DNA of 64,000 bases from Methylobacter luteus IMV-B-3098 (GTDB taxonomy: Bacteria; Pseudomonadota; Gammaproteobacteria; Methylococcales; Methylomonadaceae): assembly GCF_000427625.1 (NCBI RefSeq), contig NZ_KE386569.1, forward strand, positions 2,718,789-2,782,788. The letters are read 5' to 3'. The notes beneath the pieces are model-generated. The model did no database searches. It was not told the DNA's origin and saw only the letters and a list, made by a program, of their open reading frames with translations. The stretch's first letter is position 1; every line of letters starts with the position of its first letter. A program made the position numbers and the translations under genes. Below are positions 25,393-64,000 of this stretch, piece after piece.

Positions 25393-25428
25393 ATGCCGGG
25401 TTTCCGCTAAAGCTCCAACTCAGCCTAC
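25393..25428. repeat. dispersed intergenic repeat, half-element
   Basis: ATGCCGGGTTT, then CGCTAAAGCTCCAAC and CAGCCTAC. It is nearly identical to 62703-62738 and shares both ends with the right arm of the palindrome at 3053-3117. The left arm is not seen here. Confidence 0.6.
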
Positions 25429-25504
25429 ACAGACGCACGGCCGGAAATCACCGCAGATAAATTTGCCTGTCTTCGACAGCGCCTGCATTTTTTCTTCCCA
25501 GACT

Positions 25505-53512: not shown

Positions 53513-54202
53513 TTATGAGGGCCTATATTCTTCCTGCGGCGGGCCTGACAGTTCCAACAGATTGATCACATTCATCCTGATAGCCAGGCGGGTCAGCTCG
53601 ATATCGTTGGCGACGCCCAGTTTCCGCTTGATCAGGTAATGGCAGTTCAGCACGGTTTTCGGGCTGATATGGAGCAGGCGGGCAATGTCTTCGGTCGATC
53701 GCGCTTCGGCCAGCAGCCGCAAGATCTCGAATTCGCGTACGGTCAGTTCTTCCAGCGCGATGCGATAGGCGCCCAGCTTTTCCAGGGCAAGCGCCTGGGC
53801 GATATCGGCGCTCAGCGTGTGGCGACCGGCATGGACGTCATAGACGGCCCGGATCAGGACATCGGGCGCACTGCTCTTGGTTACGTAACCTAAAGCGCCG
53901 GCCCGCGCGGCCTGAATCGCAAAAACCGGATGCAGGTGCATGCTGAAAACCAGAACTCTGGCATCGGGGCGGCTCTGTCTGATATGAGCGATAACCTCCA
54001 GTCCGCCCTGGCCGGGCAGCGACAGATCCATGATGACCAGATCGGGGTTGCAATCCTTGAAGCGGGCATACGCCTCGGCTCCGTCCGCGGCCTCCGCGAC
54101 GATCTCCAGCCTGGGTTGCTTTTCCAGCAGCGAGCGATAACCTTCGCGGACGATGGCATGGTCGTCGACCAGTAAAATCCTGATGTGTGCAGAAGTCGTC
54201 AT
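53513..54202 (-). CDS. NarL/LuxR-type response regulator
   Basis: ATG at 54202 overlaps the kinase stop by four bases (ATGA), so this start is preferred over one 36 bases upstream; 229 residues. The receiver domain has DDH at 13-15 and the phosphorylated Asp59 in DLVIMDLSLPG, with KSSAPDVLI as the Lys block. The C-terminal LuxR helix-turn-helix is LTVREFEILRLLAEARSTED and SPKTVLNCHYLIKRKL. It works with the kinase at 54199. It lies next to the PEP-CTERM modules and could control them, though that is only position. Confidence 0.93.
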   Translation of the reverse strand: MTTSAHIRILLVDDHAIVREGYRSLLEKQPRLEIVAEAADGAEAYARFKDCNPDLVIMDLSLPGQGGLEVIAHIRQSRPDARVLVFSMHLHPVFAIQAARAGALGYVTKSSAPDVLIRAVYDVHAGRHTLSADIAQALALEKLGAYRIALEELTVREFEILRLLAEARSTEDIARLLHISPKTVLNCHYLIKRKLGVANDIELTRLAIRMNVINLLELSGPPQEEYRPS

Positions 54203-55560
54203 GTCGGCGCGCCTGTAGCGGGTTGTACCGGCAGCCATGCCCGGACCATCAGACCGCCGGCTTGGGCCGGCGCCAGCGTTAGTTGACCACCCAGCGCCGC
54301 CACGCGCTCGCGCATACCAAGCAGTCCAATGCCGGACGCTTCTTCAAACGGCAGTTTATCGGCGATGCCGTCGTCCTCGACCCGCAATTCGACAAGTCCG
54401 TCGGATAGTATGAGCGTGACTTTCGCGTTGGCGGCGGATGAATGCTTGGCGATATTGGTCAGGCATTCCTGAACGATGCGAAAAATATTGACGGGCACCG
54501 GCTCGGGCAGCCGGTTAAGATCGCCGTCGATGGTCAGCTGATAATGAATCTTGCCGCCGCTTCGGGCATTCCAGCCGGCCACCAGGCTGCTCAGCGAGGC
54601 CGACAATCCCAGTTCATCGATATCCATGGGCCGCAATCGCAGCAGCAGTCCGCGCAACAAATCCATCATGTGGCCGGTAATGCGAGCGATGTTTTTGCCT
54701 TCGGGCACCAGCGCAGGGCAGCCCTGTTCCGCCGTTTGCGTCATGGATGCCGCGACGGCGTTGATGGCGGCCAGGCATTGGCCGAACTCGTCGTGTAGCT
54801 CGCGCGCCAGATAGCGGCGCTCTTCCTCCTGGACAGTCATCAGCTTTAGGGCCAGTTTTCGGCGTTCGGCAAGCAACTGCTGCTGACTGGCCGCCAGTAG
54901 GTTAATGGCCTGGCCGGTGCGCTGCCATTCGATCAGCTCGAAAGCGGGCAGACGGGTAGATAAGTCGCCATTGCTCATGTTTTCCAGGCCGGCAACGATC
55001 ACTTGTGCCGGACGCAATGCGCGACTCACCGTGACATAAACCAGCAGGCAAAGAGCCAGCACGGTTGTTGCGGACAGCCCCATCAGGCCGCGAAGCTGTT
55101 GCCAGGCGCTGGCAATCTCGATTTCGGCGCTGGGTGCGACAATGACGGTGCCATGAACGCGATCACGAAAGGCAATCGGCCGCATGGCCTCAAGGCCGGG
55201 TTTGAAAGCCCATCGGTATATGCCTTCGAACCAGTCCGGCACGCTCCGGGCGATTACGTTGCCGCCGCTGCATACGCTGCGGACCTGATCTCCGTCTGTC
55301 GGCATGAACCGCACGCAAGTGCCGGATACGGTGCTGATCTGTTGCCATAATCCCAGATCCGGGAACCTCGCCACATGGTCGAAGCCCGCATTGATGCGTA
55401 GCAGTTGCACTTCCAGTTGCCGGCCTATCGAGTCGGCCGTTGAACGGGCCTCGCGCCGGAATTCCCGGTCGGCCTGATACAGCACCCAGATAGCCGTTGC
55501 AGCCAGGCAGGCGAAGCCGATCAGGATGATGCGCGAGAGCAAGTAAATTTTCAGATTCAT
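54199..55560 (-). CDS. sensor histidine kinase, NarX/UhpB class (HisKA_3)
   Basis: A 453-residue kinase. Spans at about 8-28 and 157-178 enclose a periplasmic sensor of about 125 residues that contains two Cys (SGTCVRF, RSVCSGG). A HAMP-like linker follows (RALRPAQVIVAGLENMSNGD). The HisKA_3 dimer box EERRYLARELHDEFGQCLAA carries the phospho-acceptor His256. The ATPase domain has NIFRIVQECLTNIAKHSSAA and EDDGIADKLPFEEASGIGLL. It phosphorylates the partner regulator encoded next to it. The signal is unknown. Confidence 0.93.
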   Translation of the reverse strand: MNLKIYLLSRIILIGFACLAATAIWVLYQADREFRREARSTADSIGRQLEVQLLRINAGFDHVARFPDLGLWQQISTVSGTCVRFMPTDGDQVRSVCSGGNVIARSVPDWFEGIYRWAFKPGLEAMRPIAFRDRVHGTVIVAPSAEIEIASAWQQLRGLMGLSATTVLALCLLVYVTVSRALRPAQVIVAGLENMSNGDLSTRLPAFELIEWQRTGQAINLLAASQQQLLAERRKLALKLMTVQEEERRYLARELHDEFGQCLAAINAVAASMTQTAEQGCPALVPEGKNIARITGHMMDLLRGLLLRLRPMDIDELGLSASLSSLVAGWNARSGGKIHYQLTIDGDLNRLPEPVPVNIFRIVQECLTNIAKHSSAANAKVTLILSDGLVELRVEDDGIADKLPFEEASGIGLLGMRERVAALGGQLTLAPAQAGGLMVRAWLPVQPATGAPT

Positions 55561-59046: not shown

Positions 59047-60099
59047 ATGCTTTCGCAAACGCCGGGCGGCCAATCGCCTTATGATGAGCGGATCATCCCC
59101 TTTACTGCCGATGATGGCGTCGAACTTAACCTGATCAATGTCCGGGGGCGGAAAGCGCCGGACAAAGGCCCGGTCATTCTGGTGCATGGCGCCGGGGTGC
59201 GTGCCTCCATATACCGGGCGCCGGTAGCGACAACGATAGTCGATGCGCTGATTGAACAGGGCTATGATGTATGGCTGGAAAACTGGCGGGGCAGCATCGC
59301 TTTTCCGCCGAATTTATGGACGCTGGATCAGGCGGCCCTCTACGATCATCCCAAGGCCGTCAAGACCATTATCGCCGAGACCGGCGCGAAAAATCTCAAG
59401 GCCATCATCCATTGCCAAGGCTCGACCAGTTTCACCATGTCGGCCCTCGCGGGGCTCGTGCCCGAAGTCACGACCATCGTCAGCAATGCCGTTTCCCTGC
59501 ACCCGGTCGTGCCGCGCTGGTCCACGTTCAAGCTTCAATACCTGGTGCCGCTGGTCAAGCTGCTCACGCCCTACCTGAATCCGCACTGGGGCGTCGAGGC
59601 GCCCGGTCTGGCTGCAAAGTTGATTACCCTGCTGGTCAATATGACCCATCACGAATGCCATAACGCCGTTTGCAAACAGGTCAGTTTTACTTACGGCAGC
59701 GGCTTTCCGGCTTTGTGGAGCCATGAAAACCTCAATGAAGAAACCCATGAATGGTTGAAGGAAGAATTCGGCGCCGTGCCGCTGCGCTTTTTCGAGCAGA
59801 TCACCCGCTGCACGCAGCAGGGCCATTTGGTTTCCGTCGAAGGCTTCAAGGAACTGCCGGACGATTTTCTCAAGGCCGCCCCCAAGACTGACGCCCGGTT
59901 CGCCTTCTTTGCCGGGGAAAACAACCTTTGTTTTCTGCCCATCAGCCAAATCAATTCCTATAACTATTTTTCCGGATTGCGCCCGAATTACCATTCGCTG
60001 CATGTGCTGCCCGGCTACGGCCACCTGGATGTGTTCATGGGCAAGCATGCGGCTCGGGACACGTTTCCCTTGATCCTCGACGAACTCGATAAAGATTAA
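59047..60099 (+). CDS. alpha/beta hydrolase with Cys in the nucleophile position
   Basis: A 350-residue alpha/beta hydrolase. VILVHGAGVRASIYR (43-57) is the oxyanion block, ENWRGSIAFP follows, and IIHCQGSTSF places Cys123 where most relatives have Ser. PHA synthases also use a Cys there, so this may still be a working nucleophile. The late motif LPGYGHLDVFMG (near 323-334) supplies the His and Asp. No signal peptide is seen. It begins a run of four genes in one direction with an ADC-like, a patatin and a GMC oxidoreductase gene; similar hydrolases are known as partners or fusions of cholesterol-oxidase-like GMC enzymes. Confidence 0.88.
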   Translation: MLSQTPGGQSPYDERIIPFTADDGVELNLINVRGRKAPDKGPVILVHGAGVRASIYRAPVATTIVDALIEQGYDVWLENWRGSIAFPPNLWTLDQAALYDHPKAVKTIIAETGAKNLKAIIHCQGSTSFTMSALAGLVPEVTTIVSNAVSLHPVVPRWSTFKLQYLVPLVKLLTPYLNPHWGVEAPGLAAKLITLLVNMTHHECHNAVCKQVSFTYGSGFPALWSHENLNEETHEWLKEEFGAVPLRFFEQITRCTQQGHLVSVEGFKELPDDFLKAAPKTDARFAFFAGENNLCFLPISQINSYNYFSGLRPNYHSLHVLPGYGHLDVFMGKHAARDTFPLILDELDKD

Positions 60100-60161
60100 T
60101 TCATAACAACAACAATAAAACCGCGCCATAAAATCAACGGCGCCAAGAGGGAGTAAAAATC

Positions 60162-61034
60162 ATGTTTTGCATGCCAAAACGCATTAAAGAATACGCGGGT
60201 CGGTTTTCATTGGTCGACGGCATTCCGTTCAAGCTACCCGTTGCCGCAACGAATTCGCCAGCCTTGATGGCGGTATTCCCGATTAATCCGGAAAAAGCCA
60301 AAGCCTTTTTGCCCAAAGGCGTCCATCCCTTCCGCTTGTGGAACACCGGGTTGCTGATCGTGACCGTTATTGATTATCGCGAAACGCCTATTGGCAAATA
60401 CGTCGAATACAGCATCGCCATCGCCTGCACCCATGGCGCAAAACCGGCGCCAAGACTGCTGCCGGCCCTGTTCATGAATTTCTTCAAGACCGGCCAGTAT
60501 GTCGTTGACCTGCCGGTATCGTCCGAAATATCGGTCAAAGGCGGCAAAGGCATCTGGGGCATGCCGAAGCACCAGGGACATCTGAATTTTAAAATCACCG
60601 AGGACAAGGTCAGCAGCCAGTATGACCTGGATGGCAAACTGGTGACTTATGTCGAAATAGAGCCCCCGAAAAAAACCTGCCTGCCGGTCAAGATGCGCGC
60701 CTCCAATTACTGTTCATTCCGCGGCATGCTGATGAAGTCGGACATCCTGCTCGACACCAAATGCGGCGTTCGCCTGTTCAAGAACGCCAAAGCCCGCTTT
60801 GTCATCGGCGACCATCCCCGCCTGCAAGCCATGAAGGAACTGGAAATCGGCGATGCCATTGCCACGGTTTTCCTGCCGTCCATTACCGGCACGCTCGATG
60901 ATCACATCGAGAGCTGGTTTCTCGATTTCGACCAACTGCCCGAGAAAGCTCCGGAAGGCTTTGAGTCCGTGATCAATCTGGGTTTGAGCGAAGAATGGCT
61001 GTCTCCGCCTGATGCGCCGATTCCACCGGCATGA
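60162..61034 (+). CDS. acetoacetate decarboxylase family protein
   Basis: A 290-residue protein of the ADC fold. Blocks include LMAVFPINPEKAKAFLPKGV, LIVTVIDYRETPIGKYVEYS and GKGIWGMPKHQGHLNF; the last matches the conserved GxWGxPK region. The Lys of this block may or may not correspond to the Schiff-base Lys of true acetoacetate decarboxylase, so the activity is uncertain; many relatives are not decarboxylases. It lies 62 bases after the hydrolase gene behind GAGGGAG and 37 bases before the patatin gene, so it is very likely cotranscribed. Confidence 0.85.
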   Translation: MFCMPKRIKEYAGRFSLVDGIPFKLPVAATNSPALMAVFPINPEKAKAFLPKGVHPFRLWNTGLLIVTVIDYRETPIGKYVEYSIAIACTHGAKPAPRLLPALFMNFFKTGQYVVDLPVSSEISVKGGKGIWGMPKHQGHLNFKITEDKVSSQYDLDGKLVTYVEIEPPKKTCLPVKMRASNYCSFRGMLMKSDILLDTKCGVRLFKNAKARFVIGDHPRLQAMKELEIGDAIATVFLPSITGTLDDHIESWFLDFDQLPEKAPEGFESVINLGLSEEWLSPPDAPIPPA

Positions 61035-61071
61035 TCATGATGGTAACAATCAACAGGCAGGAGTAATAGTT

Positions 61072-62652
61072 ATGACGGCACAAGCCCATATTCCTCAAGG
61101 CGCGGCGGCTAACGACAGTCGATTGCCCAAAAGGGCGCTCATTCTTCCGGGAGGCGGCATGCGTTTGTCCTATGCCGCCGGCGCGCTGACCGAGATTTTC
61201 GCGCATGACCTCAAGTTTCAGCACATGGACGGTACGTCCGGAGGCTCGCTGAATCTGGCCATGCTGTTTTCCGGTTTGCAGATTGACGACATCTGCGAAC
61301 GCTGGCGCACCTTGAAAATGCGCGATACGATCTCTTTTATGCCATTGGGCAATTATCTCTGGCCGCCCAAGTTTGTCGCCGCCGGTTCAGCAAAGGCGTT
61401 CCGCGAAAAAGTCTATCCGCATCTGGGCATCGATTTTGAAAAAATCCGCGCCGCGGAAGGCGTGCAGGGCACGTTCAACGTCTGCAATTTCGGCAGGAAA
61501 ATGAACGAAGTCATCCGACACCAGGATATGACCGAGGATTTCCTGGTGGCCGGCATGTCATTGCCTGGCACGCTGCCGCCCGTCACGATCAAGGATACGG
61601 TTTATCTGGATTCAGGGTTTATCCAGGATGCCAATTTGCTGGAGGCCGTCAAGCGCGGCGCCAATGAATTATGGCTGATCTGGATCATGGGCAATATTCC
61701 CAGCTACCGAAGCGGCCCGCTGGACGCCTATGTGCAAATGCTGGAAATGAGCGCCAACGGCGCACTGATCAAAGAGCTTCAACAAATCAAGGACATCAAT
61801 ACCCGGATAGCCAACGGCGAACAACCATACGGACATCAACAACCCATCACTCTCCACCTGATCAAACCCGCGCATCCGCTGCCACTGGACTCGGCGCTGT
61901 ACACGGGCGCGATCAGCCACGCCACCCTGATCGAAATGGGACGGGCCGATGCGAGAGCTTATTTCAACAGCATGAAACCGGAGGGGGTTCCGTTTGAACC
62001 TTACATACTGAAAATGACAGCACAAAAAACAGGTTTGCAATTTAAAGAAACGATGACGGGCGGCTTTGCGCTCGATGCCAGCGATCCCCAGGACGGCAAG
62101 GCGAAAGGCAAACAGGCGGGTACGCAACTGGCCATGCACGCGATGGTCAGCATCGACGACATGGATGCCTTCGTCAAGGATGCCGAGCATCCGGGCCACT
62201 TGACCGGCACCATCGATTTTGCCCCGTTGGGCATGGGCATGGTCGCCAAGACCGGGGTGTTCAATTTGTTCAAACCCACGGCCGATCCGAAATTGACCTT
62301 GATGGTTTATGAGCTGGGCTTTGAGCATCAAGGCGAAGCCTATTACCTGGCGGGCAGGAAGGAAGTACGCGACGGCTCGCTGCTCAAGCTCTGGCCTGAG
62401 ACTACAACCCTGTACACGCAGCTGCACAAGGGTACCGACAAATCGGGTCCGGTCATCGGCGCGGGCATCCTGACATTGGGCGTAGTCGATCTGATGAAGC
62501 TGGTGTCGACCGTGACGGTCACGCAGGCTGATGGCTTCGCGGCAAAAGCCGGGACGATCGGCGCTTTCGGCGGCTTTTTCATGCGCGAGCTTTGGGACAC
62601 GTATGTCACGCACGTCCACAAAAACGGTGCGGGCGCCCAGATTCAATCCTGA
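61072..62652 (+). CDS. patatin-like phospholipase
   Basis: ATG at 61072 with AGGAG eight bases upstream gives 526 residues; an earlier ATG at 61012 overlaps the previous gene and is less likely. ILPGGGMRLSYAAGAL (24-39) is the oxyanion loop, GTSGGS holds the nucleophile Ser56, and YLDSGF the partner Asp180. The second half (from about 330) is an extra domain with IDFAPLGMGMVAKTGVFNLF and PKLTLMVYELGFEHQGEAYY, which looks like the N-terminal domain often found in cholesterol-oxidase-like GMC proteins. It should release fatty acids from lipids or steroid-type esters. It is part of the four-gene run. Confidence 0.88.
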   Translation: MTAQAHIPQGAAANDSRLPKRALILPGGGMRLSYAAGALTEIFAHDLKFQHMDGTSGGSLNLAMLFSGLQIDDICERWRTLKMRDTISFMPLGNYLWPPKFVAAGSAKAFREKVYPHLGIDFEKIRAAEGVQGTFNVCNFGRKMNEVIRHQDMTEDFLVAGMSLPGTLPPVTIKDTVYLDSGFIQDANLLEAVKRGANELWLIWIMGNIPSYRSGPLDAYVQMLEMSANGALIKELQQIKDINTRIANGEQPYGHQQPITLHLIKPAHPLPLDSALYTGAISHATLIEMGRADARAYFNSMKPEGVPFEPYILKMTAQKTGLQFKETMTGGFALDASDPQDGKAKGKQAGTQLAMHAMVSIDDMDAFVKDAEHPGHLTGTIDFAPLGMGMVAKTGVFNLFKPTADPKLTLMVYELGFEHQGEAYYLAGRKEVRDGSLLKLWPETTTLYTQLHKGTDKSGPVIGAGILTLGVVDLMKLVSTVTVTQADGFAAKAGTIGAFGGFFMRELWDTYVTHVHKNGAGAQIQS

Positions 62653-62669
62653 GTTTTTTAAGAACAGTT

Positions 62670-62738
62670 GTAGGCTGTGAACCTGGCATGGCCGGCTTCG
62701 AAATGCCGGGTTTACGCTAAAGCTCCAACCCAGCCTAC
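62670..62738. repeat. dispersed hairpin repeat
   Basis: GTAGGCTG at the left and CAGCCTAC at the right, with CGGCTTCGAAATGCCG inside. The right part, ATGCCGGGTTTACGCTAAAG onward, is nearly identical to 25393-25428. It lies between the patatin and GMC genes. Confidence 0.65.
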
Positions 62739-62815
62739 ATGAGCGGCTTCATGCGCAAGCCAGGAAGCTATAAATCAAATCCTAACAATAAAAAAAACAA
62801 TATCGGGGAAATACG

Positions 62816-64000
62816 ATGAATACCGAATACGACTACGAAGCTATTGTCATCGGCAGTGGTTTTGGCGGATCAATCAATACCTGCCGCTTATCGAAAAAAT
62901 GGCCCGGCAAGGTCATGCTGCTGGAGCGCGGCAAACGCTACCCCTTGGGGGCTTTCCCGCGTTCGCCGCATGACATGGCCAACAACTTCTGGAATCTTCT
63001 GCCGGAAAAGCGCAGCAGGCCGAAAAACATCGCCAGCAAGGAAACGCACGGCATGTTCGATATACGCAATTTTGACCATATCGATGCCGTGGTCGGCGCG
63101 GGTTTGGGCGGCGGCTCGCTGATCTATGCCAATGTCTTCCTTCAGCCGCCCGATGAAGTGTTTGACCACACCTGGCCCGAAACCAGCAAGAAAGACGCTT
63201 TGCAGCCTTATTACGCGGTCAGCAAGGAAGTTCTGGGCGCAAGACCGATGCCGCAAAACGACGATCCGCGCCGGCAGGTCATCCGCACGGGCTTATTCCA
63301 GGAATTCGCCAAGGCGGACGGCCACGAGTCGCAAATGCTCGATATCAATGTATTTTTCGGAAATGACTTCGACAATCCGACCGACATCGGCGTACAGGAA
63401 AAAAACCGTTACGGCGCGCTGCAGACTTCCTGCGTCTATTGCGCCGAATGCGATCTGGGTTGCAACACGCAATCGAAAAACTCGCTGGATTTGAATTACC
63501 TGCATGTCGCCGAAACGCGCTATCAGGCCGCGATTAAAACCGAAGTTCTCGGCCAGAAAATCGTGCCCCTGGATGCCCAAGGCAATGAAAACTCTGCTGC
63601 CAGCGGCGAGTTCGGTTACCGGGTCTATTGGCAGGATTTGAATGACGGCCACACGGAGCACAGCGCCGTGACCCGCCGCGTGGTGGTTTCGGCCGGCACG
63701 CTGGGCTCGAACGAGCTTCTGATGCGCTGCCGGGATGTCTACAAAACCCTGCCCAATATCAGCCAAAAGCTCGGCCAGCATTTTTCCGGTAACGGCGATT
63801 TTCTCTCTTTTGTCATCGACGGCGACAAGCCCGCCAATCCCAATTACGGCCCGGTCATTACCCAGGGCACTGATTACAATCTGTTCAAAAATTTCAATCG
63901 GGATAACGCCTTCATACTGGAAGACGCCAGCTATCCCAATTTTGCCGCCTGGTACTCAGAGGGGCTCAGACCCGGCTTTTCGCATTTCAATGCCTTTATC
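62816..64000 (+). CDS. GMC oxidoreductase (cholesterol-oxidase-like), N-terminal part
   Basis: The frame starts with ATG at 62816 and is open to the window end (395 codons), so the C-terminus is missing. AIVIGSGFGGSINTCRLSKK (9-28) is the FAD-binding dinucleotide fold, and VVGAGLGGGSLIYANVFLQP is the second GMC flavin block. A Cys-rich stretch TSCVYCAECDLGCNTQSKNS is characteristic of this subgroup of bacterial cholesterol-oxidase-like GMC proteins. It oxidises an alcohol on a hydrophobic substrate with FAD. Substrate is unknown; sterols or hopanoids are possible given the hydrolase and patatin neighbours. Confidence 0.9.
   Translation, partial: MNTEYDYEAIVIGSGFGGSINTCRLSKKWPGKVMLLERGKRYPLGAFPRSPHDMANNFWNLLPEKRSRPKNIASKETHGMFDIRNFDHIDAVVGAGLGGGSLIYANVFLQPPDEVFDHTWPETSKKDALQPYYAVSKEVLGARPMPQNDDPRRQVIRTGLFQEFAKADGHESQMLDINVFFGNDFDNPTDIGVQEKNRYGALQTSCVYCAECDLGCNTQSKNSLDLNYLHVAETRYQAAIKTEVLGQKIVPLDAQGNENSAASGEFGYRVYWQDLNDGHTEHSAVTRRVVVSAGTLGSNELLMRCRDVYKTLPNISQKLGQHFSGNGDFLSFVIDGDKPANPNYGPVITQGTDYNLFKNFNRDNAFILEDASYPNFAAWYSEGLRPGFSHFNAFI

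Follow-up and report, generated by a model that had tools for sequence, protein, structure and literature searches.

The last part of a 64,000 bp stretch of the Methylobacter luteus IMV-B-3098 genome (contig NZ_KE386569.1, positions 2,718,789 to 2,782,788 of the forward strand; 'the window' below) carries a run of genes for lipid- or ester-type enzymes, and we have analysed this gene cluster together with its relatives in other bacteria. An earlier reading made from the sequence of the window alone (the sequence-only reading) had pointed out four co-directional genes at 59047–64000, and all four open reading frames (ORFs) do lie on the + strand. They encode a 350 aa alpha/beta-hydrolase with a putative Cys nucleophile (59047..60099), a 290 aa protein related to acetoacetate decarboxylase (ADC-like; 60162..61034), a patatin-like phospholipase with an extra C-terminal domain (61072..62652) and a cholesterol-oxidase-like GMC oxidoreductase, which begins at 62816 and runs past the end of the window. 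The letters beyond 64000 were read from the same genome's locus (L009, in which window position equals L009 position plus 57211). The GMC gene ends at window-equivalent position 64540 and encodes 574 aa in full. It is followed on the same strand by genes for a 495 aa metallophosphoesterase (PF00149, E 6.5e-9) and a 652 aa CHAT protein (PF12770, E 1e-24), both of which the sequence-only reading had missed. The next gene is on the opposite strand and looks by eye like a Rep/UvrD helicase. The cluster order is hydrolase, ADC-like, patatin with barrel domain, GMC, metallophosphoesterase and CHAT.

The intergenic gaps in M. luteus are 62, 37, 163, 163 and 1 bp, the last being that between the metallophosphoesterase and CHAT genes. 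The 37 bp gap is counted from the patatin ATG at 61072, which has a clear Shine–Dalgarno sequence (AGGAG); an upstream ATG at 61012 is without a clear one. The corresponding gaps, taken from longest-ORF starts, are −4, 3, 1, 37 and 2 bp in Azotobacter beijerinckii and 33, −4, 20, 1 and −59 bp in Shewanella salipaludis, where −59 may reflect a miscalled start. Gene spacing and conservation suggest that the six genes may be expressed as a single operon.

The co-occurrence of these genes was surveyed twice. The first survey was a draw of 151 genomes from the host's family, in which there are matches to GMC in 25 genomes, to the hydrolase in 25, to the patatin or its C-terminal domain in 24 and to the ADC-like protein in nine. 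The 24 genomes with the barrel domain are exactly those with both GMC and hydrolase, and the matches are side by side in each. Hydrolase and barrel are thus found beside the GMC gene in 24 of the 25 GMC-bearing genomes; the GMC match in the 25th (G006) is cut at a contig end. All nine ADC-like matches are inside the cluster, and the commoner phosphoesterase type, present in 17 of the 151 genomes, adjoins a GMC gene in 16 of them. The second survey consisted of the best 80 of 94 relatives found with the GMC query and profile, and linkage was scored when hydrolase and barrel were within 7 kb of the GMC gene on the same strand. This was the case at 64 of the 80 loci; of the 50 that are well flanked, having 5 kb or more on each side, 47 show it. 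These 50 loci include a phosphoesterase of any kind in 33, an ADC-like gene in 15, a patatin in 13 and CHAT in eight; for all 80 the ADC-like and CHAT counts are 19 and eight. The two surveys are not independent because they share genomes, and gene counts at the loci were taken from tblastn maps because greedy ORF calling overlooked some genes where the GC content is high. Finally, a class-wide draw of 369 genomes, in which the top few candidates per genome were scored, gave the hydrolase family in at least 10 genomes, GMC in at least eight and both in at least seven; six of the 11 hydrolase matches are in fusion-like frames of 1147–1334 aa. Conservation of the gene set is far beyond chance, so the possibility left open by the sequence-only reading, that the set is conserved together nowhere else, is clearly not borne out. 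Searches of a library of papers found no description of this gene cluster.

The full set of six genes is present in identical order at nine loci: those of M. luteus, M. marinus and another Methylobacter, and two each of Rheinheimera, Shewanella and Azotobacter. The sequence-only reading had considered the set in methanotrophs, but it is not peculiar to them. There is also a smaller and more widespread core of GMC, barrel domain and hydrolase, often with a phosphoesterase. Two arrangements recur. In type A the order is hydrolase, ADC-like, (patatin-)barrel, GMC and phosphoesterase; Methylovulum and some others have no patatin, and their barrel domain stands alone as a protein of about 200 aa. 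In type B the GMC gene is followed by barrel and hydrolase as one protein and often by a phosphoesterase; type B is found in Methylomonas, Gallionella, one Chitinimonas, Herbaspirillum and others. Furthermore, GMC, barrel and hydrolase are joined in a single protein (1134–1251 aa by ORF calls) in Rhizobium, Azospirillum, Leptospira, Bernardetia, Persicobacter and Variovorax, and the Azospirillum fusion adjoins a metallophosphoesterase gene. An Arthrobacter megaplasmid carries GMC–barrel, an unassigned 608 aa ORF, hydrolase (57%), ADC-like (51%) and patatin (41%), and most of the type A set therefore reaches the Actinomycetota.

Some individual loci have features of their own. In Paraglaciecola arctica there is an in-frame deletion remnant (L079:8144-9226) beside the GMC gene, in which part of the hydrolase is joined to part of the patatin–barrel protein; no ADC-like match was found between the two pieces. 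In Candidatus Methylumidiphilus (L127) a single cluster contains two GMC genes (61% and 36% identity) together with two barrel domains. On a Rhodococcus pyridinivorans plasmid (L058:5722-9086) a polyketide synthase and a thioester-reductase protein are followed by a hydrolase homologue (30%), and at two loci from metagenome-assembled genomes a DUF6765 protein (PF20551, tested in L113) is encoded directly 3' of GMC (L113:11730-12863 and L115:3749-4858).

The hydrolase scores 24.9 bits against Abhydrolase_1, just below the Pfam cut-off of 25.8, and its fold assignment therefore rests on profile alignment and structure comparison. The structures nearest to its AlphaFold model (pLDDT 93.0) are lysosomal acid lipase (6v7n_B; Z 32.9, rmsd 3.0, 324 residues aligned) and gastric lipases (Z 32.2 and 32.1). 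These lipases stand clear of the next fold group, PhaC (9knj_A; Z 26.0, rmsd 2.8, 289 aligned), and the comparison places the protein in the acid lipase fold. It shares with these lipases a near full-length alignment, the HxxG elbow and the HLD motif. The Ser-His-Asp triad of the acid lipase family, however, is absent from the hydrolase family. In the profile alignment to gastric lipase, Cys123 (in IIHCQGSTS; codon 59413..59415) falls on the Ser of HSQG, His326 (in GHLD; codon 60022..60024) on the His of HLD and Asn293 (codon 59923..59925), in a weak second stretch, on the D of GGND in dog gastric lipase (1k8q). We take the aligned positions to be the lipase catalytic triad. In the set of 66 homologues, Cys occupies position 123 in 65, Asn position 293 in 65 and His position 326 in 64. 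The only non-Cys sequence is the P. arctica remnant, which was counted, and the only non-Asn sequence (L085) is also gapped at the His. The hydrolase alignment itself took 41 of the 48 sequences offered after filtering of the 66; the remnant and six plasmid fusions were left out.

Judged by these alignments, the triad is most likely Cys-His-Asn. The sequence-only reading had noted Cys in place of Ser at position 123, and the residue is indeed there; it is not an oddity of one gene, and it comes with a change from Asp to Asn. The putative Cys nucleophile is a trait of the family, with Asn at the lipase Asp position. A plain Ser-to-Cys variant of a lipase was considered and rejected in view of the linked Asp-to-Asn change. 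The hydrolase also differs from the gastric and lysosomal lipases in that no signal-peptide-like N-terminus is seen by eye. The same is true of all four window proteins, suggesting that the pathway is probably cytosolic. PhaC, with which the hydrolase has the fold class in common, is an acyltransferase with a Cys nucleophile and a Cys-His-Asp triad, whereas the predicted triad here is Cys-His-Asn, and the score against the NCBIfam PhaC class III model is insignificant (13.6 of 365.3 bits, E 0.026). The conserved change at both positions would suggest thioester chemistry or acyl transfer. Passages of one paper list thioesterases, N-acyltransferases and dienelactone hydrolases as alpha/beta enzymes with Cys nucleophiles (PMC9825947), and passages of another state that a simple Ser-to-Cys swap in hydrolases generally loses activity and that a Cys-His-Asp lipase has been made in the laboratory by engineering (PMC6642262).

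The part of the GMC protein encoded in the window (62816..64000) matches PF00732 (E 4.5e-13), and the best PDB sequence match is cholesterol oxidase 4u2l (E 5.6e-24). The FAD motif and the His/Asn catalytic region of the GMC family are both present. HxLGG and VGxNP are invariant in all 14 aligned sequences (14 of 16 listed were taken), and H..GG is found in 77 of 78 homologues; in the remaining one (L118) the sequence is cut off at the end of its contig. These features are shared with the cholesterol oxidases of Streptomyces and Brevibacterium, the best PDB matches for the protein. The 394-residue part in the window nevertheless scores 163 of the 850 bits needed for the NCBIfam cholesterol oxidase model CholsOxChoxAB (NF058674), and in contrast to cholesterol oxidase the GMC here is linked to a hydrolase and a barrel domain. 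It also has a four-cysteine motif, C206-x2-C-x2-C-x3-C216 (63431..63463), which is conserved in 77 of 78 homologues and at four further loci; Streptomyces cholesterol oxidase has no such cysteines in the alignment. In the GMC enzyme FAD-glucose dehydrogenase, according to parts of a published account, a Cys loop at residues 212–222 of the catalytic subunit holds a 3Fe-4S cluster that acts as an electron relay (PMC6719666). Both enzymes have a Cys-rich stretch, although the spacing differs (Cys212-213-218-222 there, Cx2Cx2Cx3C here; the two were compared by position, unaligned) and FAD-glucose dehydrogenase is absent from the PDB sequence matches under E 0.001. The conserved motif and this precedent suggest that the GMC is probably an Fe-S dehydrogenase.

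The sequence-only reading had also reported an added C-terminal domain on the patatin. The domain is real (62005..62619, residues ~312–516), and it belongs to the GMC–hydrolase system as well: in relatives it is free or joined to GMC or hydrolase, and in the fusion proteins it lies between the two. Filtering at 85% identity reduced 69 barrel sequences to 56, of which 55 were aligned; the divergent second copy from Candidatus Methylumidiphilus was left out. The model (pLDDT 88.5) shows a small barrel of antiparallel strands and a helix at the C terminus. It may be a lipocalin proper, and a role in holding a hydrophobic ligand is at most a reasonable guess. All other parts of the cluster belong to known enzyme families.

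The ADC-like protein is a member of the acetoacetate decarboxylase family (PF06314, E 2.3e-16; 60.5 bits vs a gathering score of 29.8). Lys136 in its WGMPKH motif, which may correspond to the Schiff-base Lys115 of Clostridium ADC, is invariant in the 16 sequences aligned of 18 found. The protein is nonetheless different from the acetoacetate decarboxylases of the NCBIfam ADC model, on which it scores 12.8 of 150 bits, and a sequence search of solved structures found no ADC chain. The patatin (PF01734, E 4e-18) has in its phospholipase domain (61072..62004) the oxyanion GGG (27–29), GTSGG with the nucleophile Ser56 and DSG with the dyad Asp180. The glycines 27–29 and 57–58, Ser56 and Asp180 are conserved in 17 of 17 homologues; GxSxG begins with Gly in 13 of them and with Ala in four. 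In the CHAT protein H245 and C302, which we take to be the protease dyad, are present in nine of nine sequences, and this protein probably acts as a regulatory protease. The phosphoesterase position is filled by several subfamilies: PF00149 members, PhoD-like proteins (one of them weak) and, most commonly, a third type. Two members of this third type have no Pfam match and a distant one matches PF00149 (E 1.4e-5). All 24 aligned sequences of the third type keep the D, GD, GNHD, H and GHTH residues. That different phosphoesterase types fill this position suggests that the pathway needs to cleave a phosphoester.

The phosphoesterase–CHAT pair is also found alone, on a small Methylobacterium plasmid (L143:5114-8586) and in Paraburkholderia (L144). 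On the plasmid a second metallophosphoesterase and a Dam-family methyltransferase are encoded nearby. Because the pair also stands alone it can be regarded as a cassette, and the lone pair may be a separate one of the conflict type.

The order of the genes, their conservation across genera, the fusions, the assignments to families and the conserved active-site residues were computed, and from these we infer the steps of a pathway. We think it somewhat probable that the cluster encodes an intracellular pathway in which an acyl group is released or transferred from a hydrophobic ester and the freed hydroxyl is oxidized. The patatin, with its Ser-Asp dyad, and/or the phosphoesterase would open a phospholipid or another phospho- or acyl-ester. 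The Cys-His-Asn enzyme would then form a thioester and transfer its acyl moiety either to water or to some other acceptor, in the manner of PhaC-type Cys alpha/beta enzymes rather than of a plain Ser lipase. The barrel domain would hold the hydrophobic substrate between hydrolase and GMC. The GMC would oxidize the alcohol via FAD and send the electrons to a carrier by way of an Fe-S cluster at its surface, acting as a dehydrogenase more than as an oxidase using O2. Where it is present, the ADC-like enzyme could remove CO2 from a β-keto product via a Lys Schiff base. At other loci the neighbours are of lipid type (fatty-acid cis/trans isomerase, cytochrome P450 and SDR), and together with the polyhydroxyalkanoate (PHA) genes in Rhizobium they point to, without settling, fatty-acyl chemistry. 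More tentatively, and with some doubt on our part, the loci could represent a new, widely scattered lipid pathway built on a natural Cys-His-Asn acyltransferase, a barrel channel to an Fe-S GMC dehydrogenase and interchangeable phosphoesterases, which would make an undescribed lipid class or lipid-derived signal.

Several observations weigh against this interpretation. The pathway is predicted from genes, and the GMC Fe-S cluster from cysteines only; the four-cysteine motif was not found at two actinobacterial loci, those of Pseudonocardia and Arthrobacter (L054 and L142). The placement of Asn293 comes from the weak C-terminal stretch of the profile alignment. A Foldseek search of the barrel model against the PDB gave nothing below E 0.001, and its VIA matches, of which the highest has Z 11.4 (2gtl_N, rmsd 3.2, 115 aligned), are to small barrels of various kinds; because these are mixed, we claim no family for the domain. 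Well-flanked loci lack a phosphoesterase in 17 of 50 cases, an ADC-like gene in 35 and a patatin in 37, so that no complete pathway is universal. Some core genes stand apart: the hydrolase is solitary in one family genome (G085) and at L151, a locus whose 14 kb contain none of the other core genes, and the phosphoesterase is solitary in another family genome (G088). Three well-flanked GMC loci (L107, L109 and L141) are without hydrolase and barrel. At L147 there is a hydrolase–ADC–patatin run with no adjoining GMC, the same genome having a GMC–barrel–hydrolase fusion elsewhere (L149). As for the operon, the 163 bp gaps on both sides of the GMC gene, the first containing a repeat, make cotranscription of all six genes less certain, and a promoter and terminator scan found no excess over shuffled sequences.

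The sequence-only reading had suggested that the substrate is perhaps a sterol or hopanoid derivative. In such a scheme the hydrolase would cleave a triterpenoid ester, the GMC would oxidize the 3-hydroxyl and the ADC-like protein would remove a carboxyl group. The nearest solved relatives, lysosomal acid lipase/cholesteryl ester hydrolase and cholesterol oxidase, fit this scheme, but structural likeness at 15–19% identity cannot fix the substrate. M. luteus itself has two matches to the squalene/oxidosqualene-cyclase family. However, SQHop_cyclase_C (PF13243, E 1e-10) was found in only five of the 16 carrier genomes searched (M. luteus, M. marinus, A. beijerinckii, Methylovulum and Methylomonas). 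The other 11, of which several are drafts, gave no match at that threshold: both Rheinheimera, both Shewanella, A. chroococcum, an Alteromonadaceae, two Paraglaciecola, Neptunicella and two Chitinimonas. This makes a self-made triterpenoid unlikely as the general substrate, and as such it was rejected; one could be the substrate in some hosts, and sterol could be imported from outside. Overall we consider steryl-ester processing improbable. The conserved lipid/ester cluster, the Cys at the nucleophile position and the extra domain are what stands of the sequence-only interpretation, without the sterol or hopanoid as general substrate. An alternative that we regard as rather unlikely, though less so, is a 3-hydroxyacyl pathway. 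Here 3-hydroxy fatty acids, released by the lipases from a polyester, from lipid A or from an aminolipid, would be converted by the GMC to 3-keto acids, from which the ADC-like protein would produce a methyl ketone, perhaps a signal. PhaC is the second-best fold group for the hydrolase, the Rhizobium fusion is near phaC, phaE and a CoA-transferase gene, and decarboxylation of β-keto acids fits the chemistry of ADC. Yet the ADC-like gene is confined to 19 of the 80 loci, and no PHA genes were recognized by eye beside the M. luteus cluster.

Patatin, CHAT protease and phosphoesterase could also be the effectors of a conflict or defence system. The CHAT protein matches PADLOC SAVED_CHAT (E 1.6e-9) and the patatin an effector profile (0.0037); the patatin also touches NCBIfam DS2_1_antiphage at 14.8 of 400 bits, far under the cut-off. 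The lone phosphoesterase–CHAT pairs of Methylobacterium and Paraburkholderia, and the patchy occurrence of the cluster (25 of 151 genomes), are consistent with such a role. On the other hand, hydrolase, ADC-like, GMC and phosphoesterase have no PADLOC match, no full PADLOC system was found, and a PHROGs search with five proteins (all but GMC) gave no match at 0.01. The core is mostly without CHAT (present at eight of 80 loci), the flanking genes look housekeeping-like by eye, and MarR-like and YifB-like families are also near the Methylomonas cluster, suggesting a shared chromosomal site. After the PADLOC and PHROGs searches defence was rejected as the principal interpretation, and we judge it quite improbable. 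Hardly any credence can be given to the remaining view, that these are independent lipid enzymes that merely adjoin: the 163 bp gaps and the repeat between some of the M. luteus genes would allow it, but it is already contradicted by the repeated linkage in distant genera and by the natural fusions.

Taken together, the gene combination, the fusion of three parts in more than one phylum and the changes at two active sites suggest that methanotrophs and other bacteria carry out a lipid transformation that has not been described. Azotobacter, Shewanella and Methylomonas are genera with genetic tools. The compact cluster is found in all three (in Methylomonas the core only), so its product could be accessible to genetics. 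The hydrolase appears to be a natural Cys-His-Asn enzyme on an acid-lipase scaffold, to be set beside the Cys-His-Asp lipase that passages of PMC6642262 describe as engineered in the laboratory.

The gap between the patatin and GMC genes contains a palindromic interspersed repeat (62668..62771), which can fold into a long hairpin (z −1.93). BLAST against the genome gave 50 rows including itself, with 40 of 133 candidates scored; this is not a full count, and some rows are the two arms of one copy. A second copy is at window positions 25393–25429. The repeat is REP- or MITE-like, and BLAST against the loci of five relatives found no match. YifB/ComM-like and MarR-like families (named by eye) are encoded near the type A cluster here (L009:14181-16655) and near the type B loci of Methylomonas (L099–L104), suggesting that the two cluster types were exchanged at the same chromosomal site. 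Upstream of the cluster, on the opposite strand, there is a pair of genes that by eye encode a sensor kinase and a NarL-type regulator (window 53513–55560).

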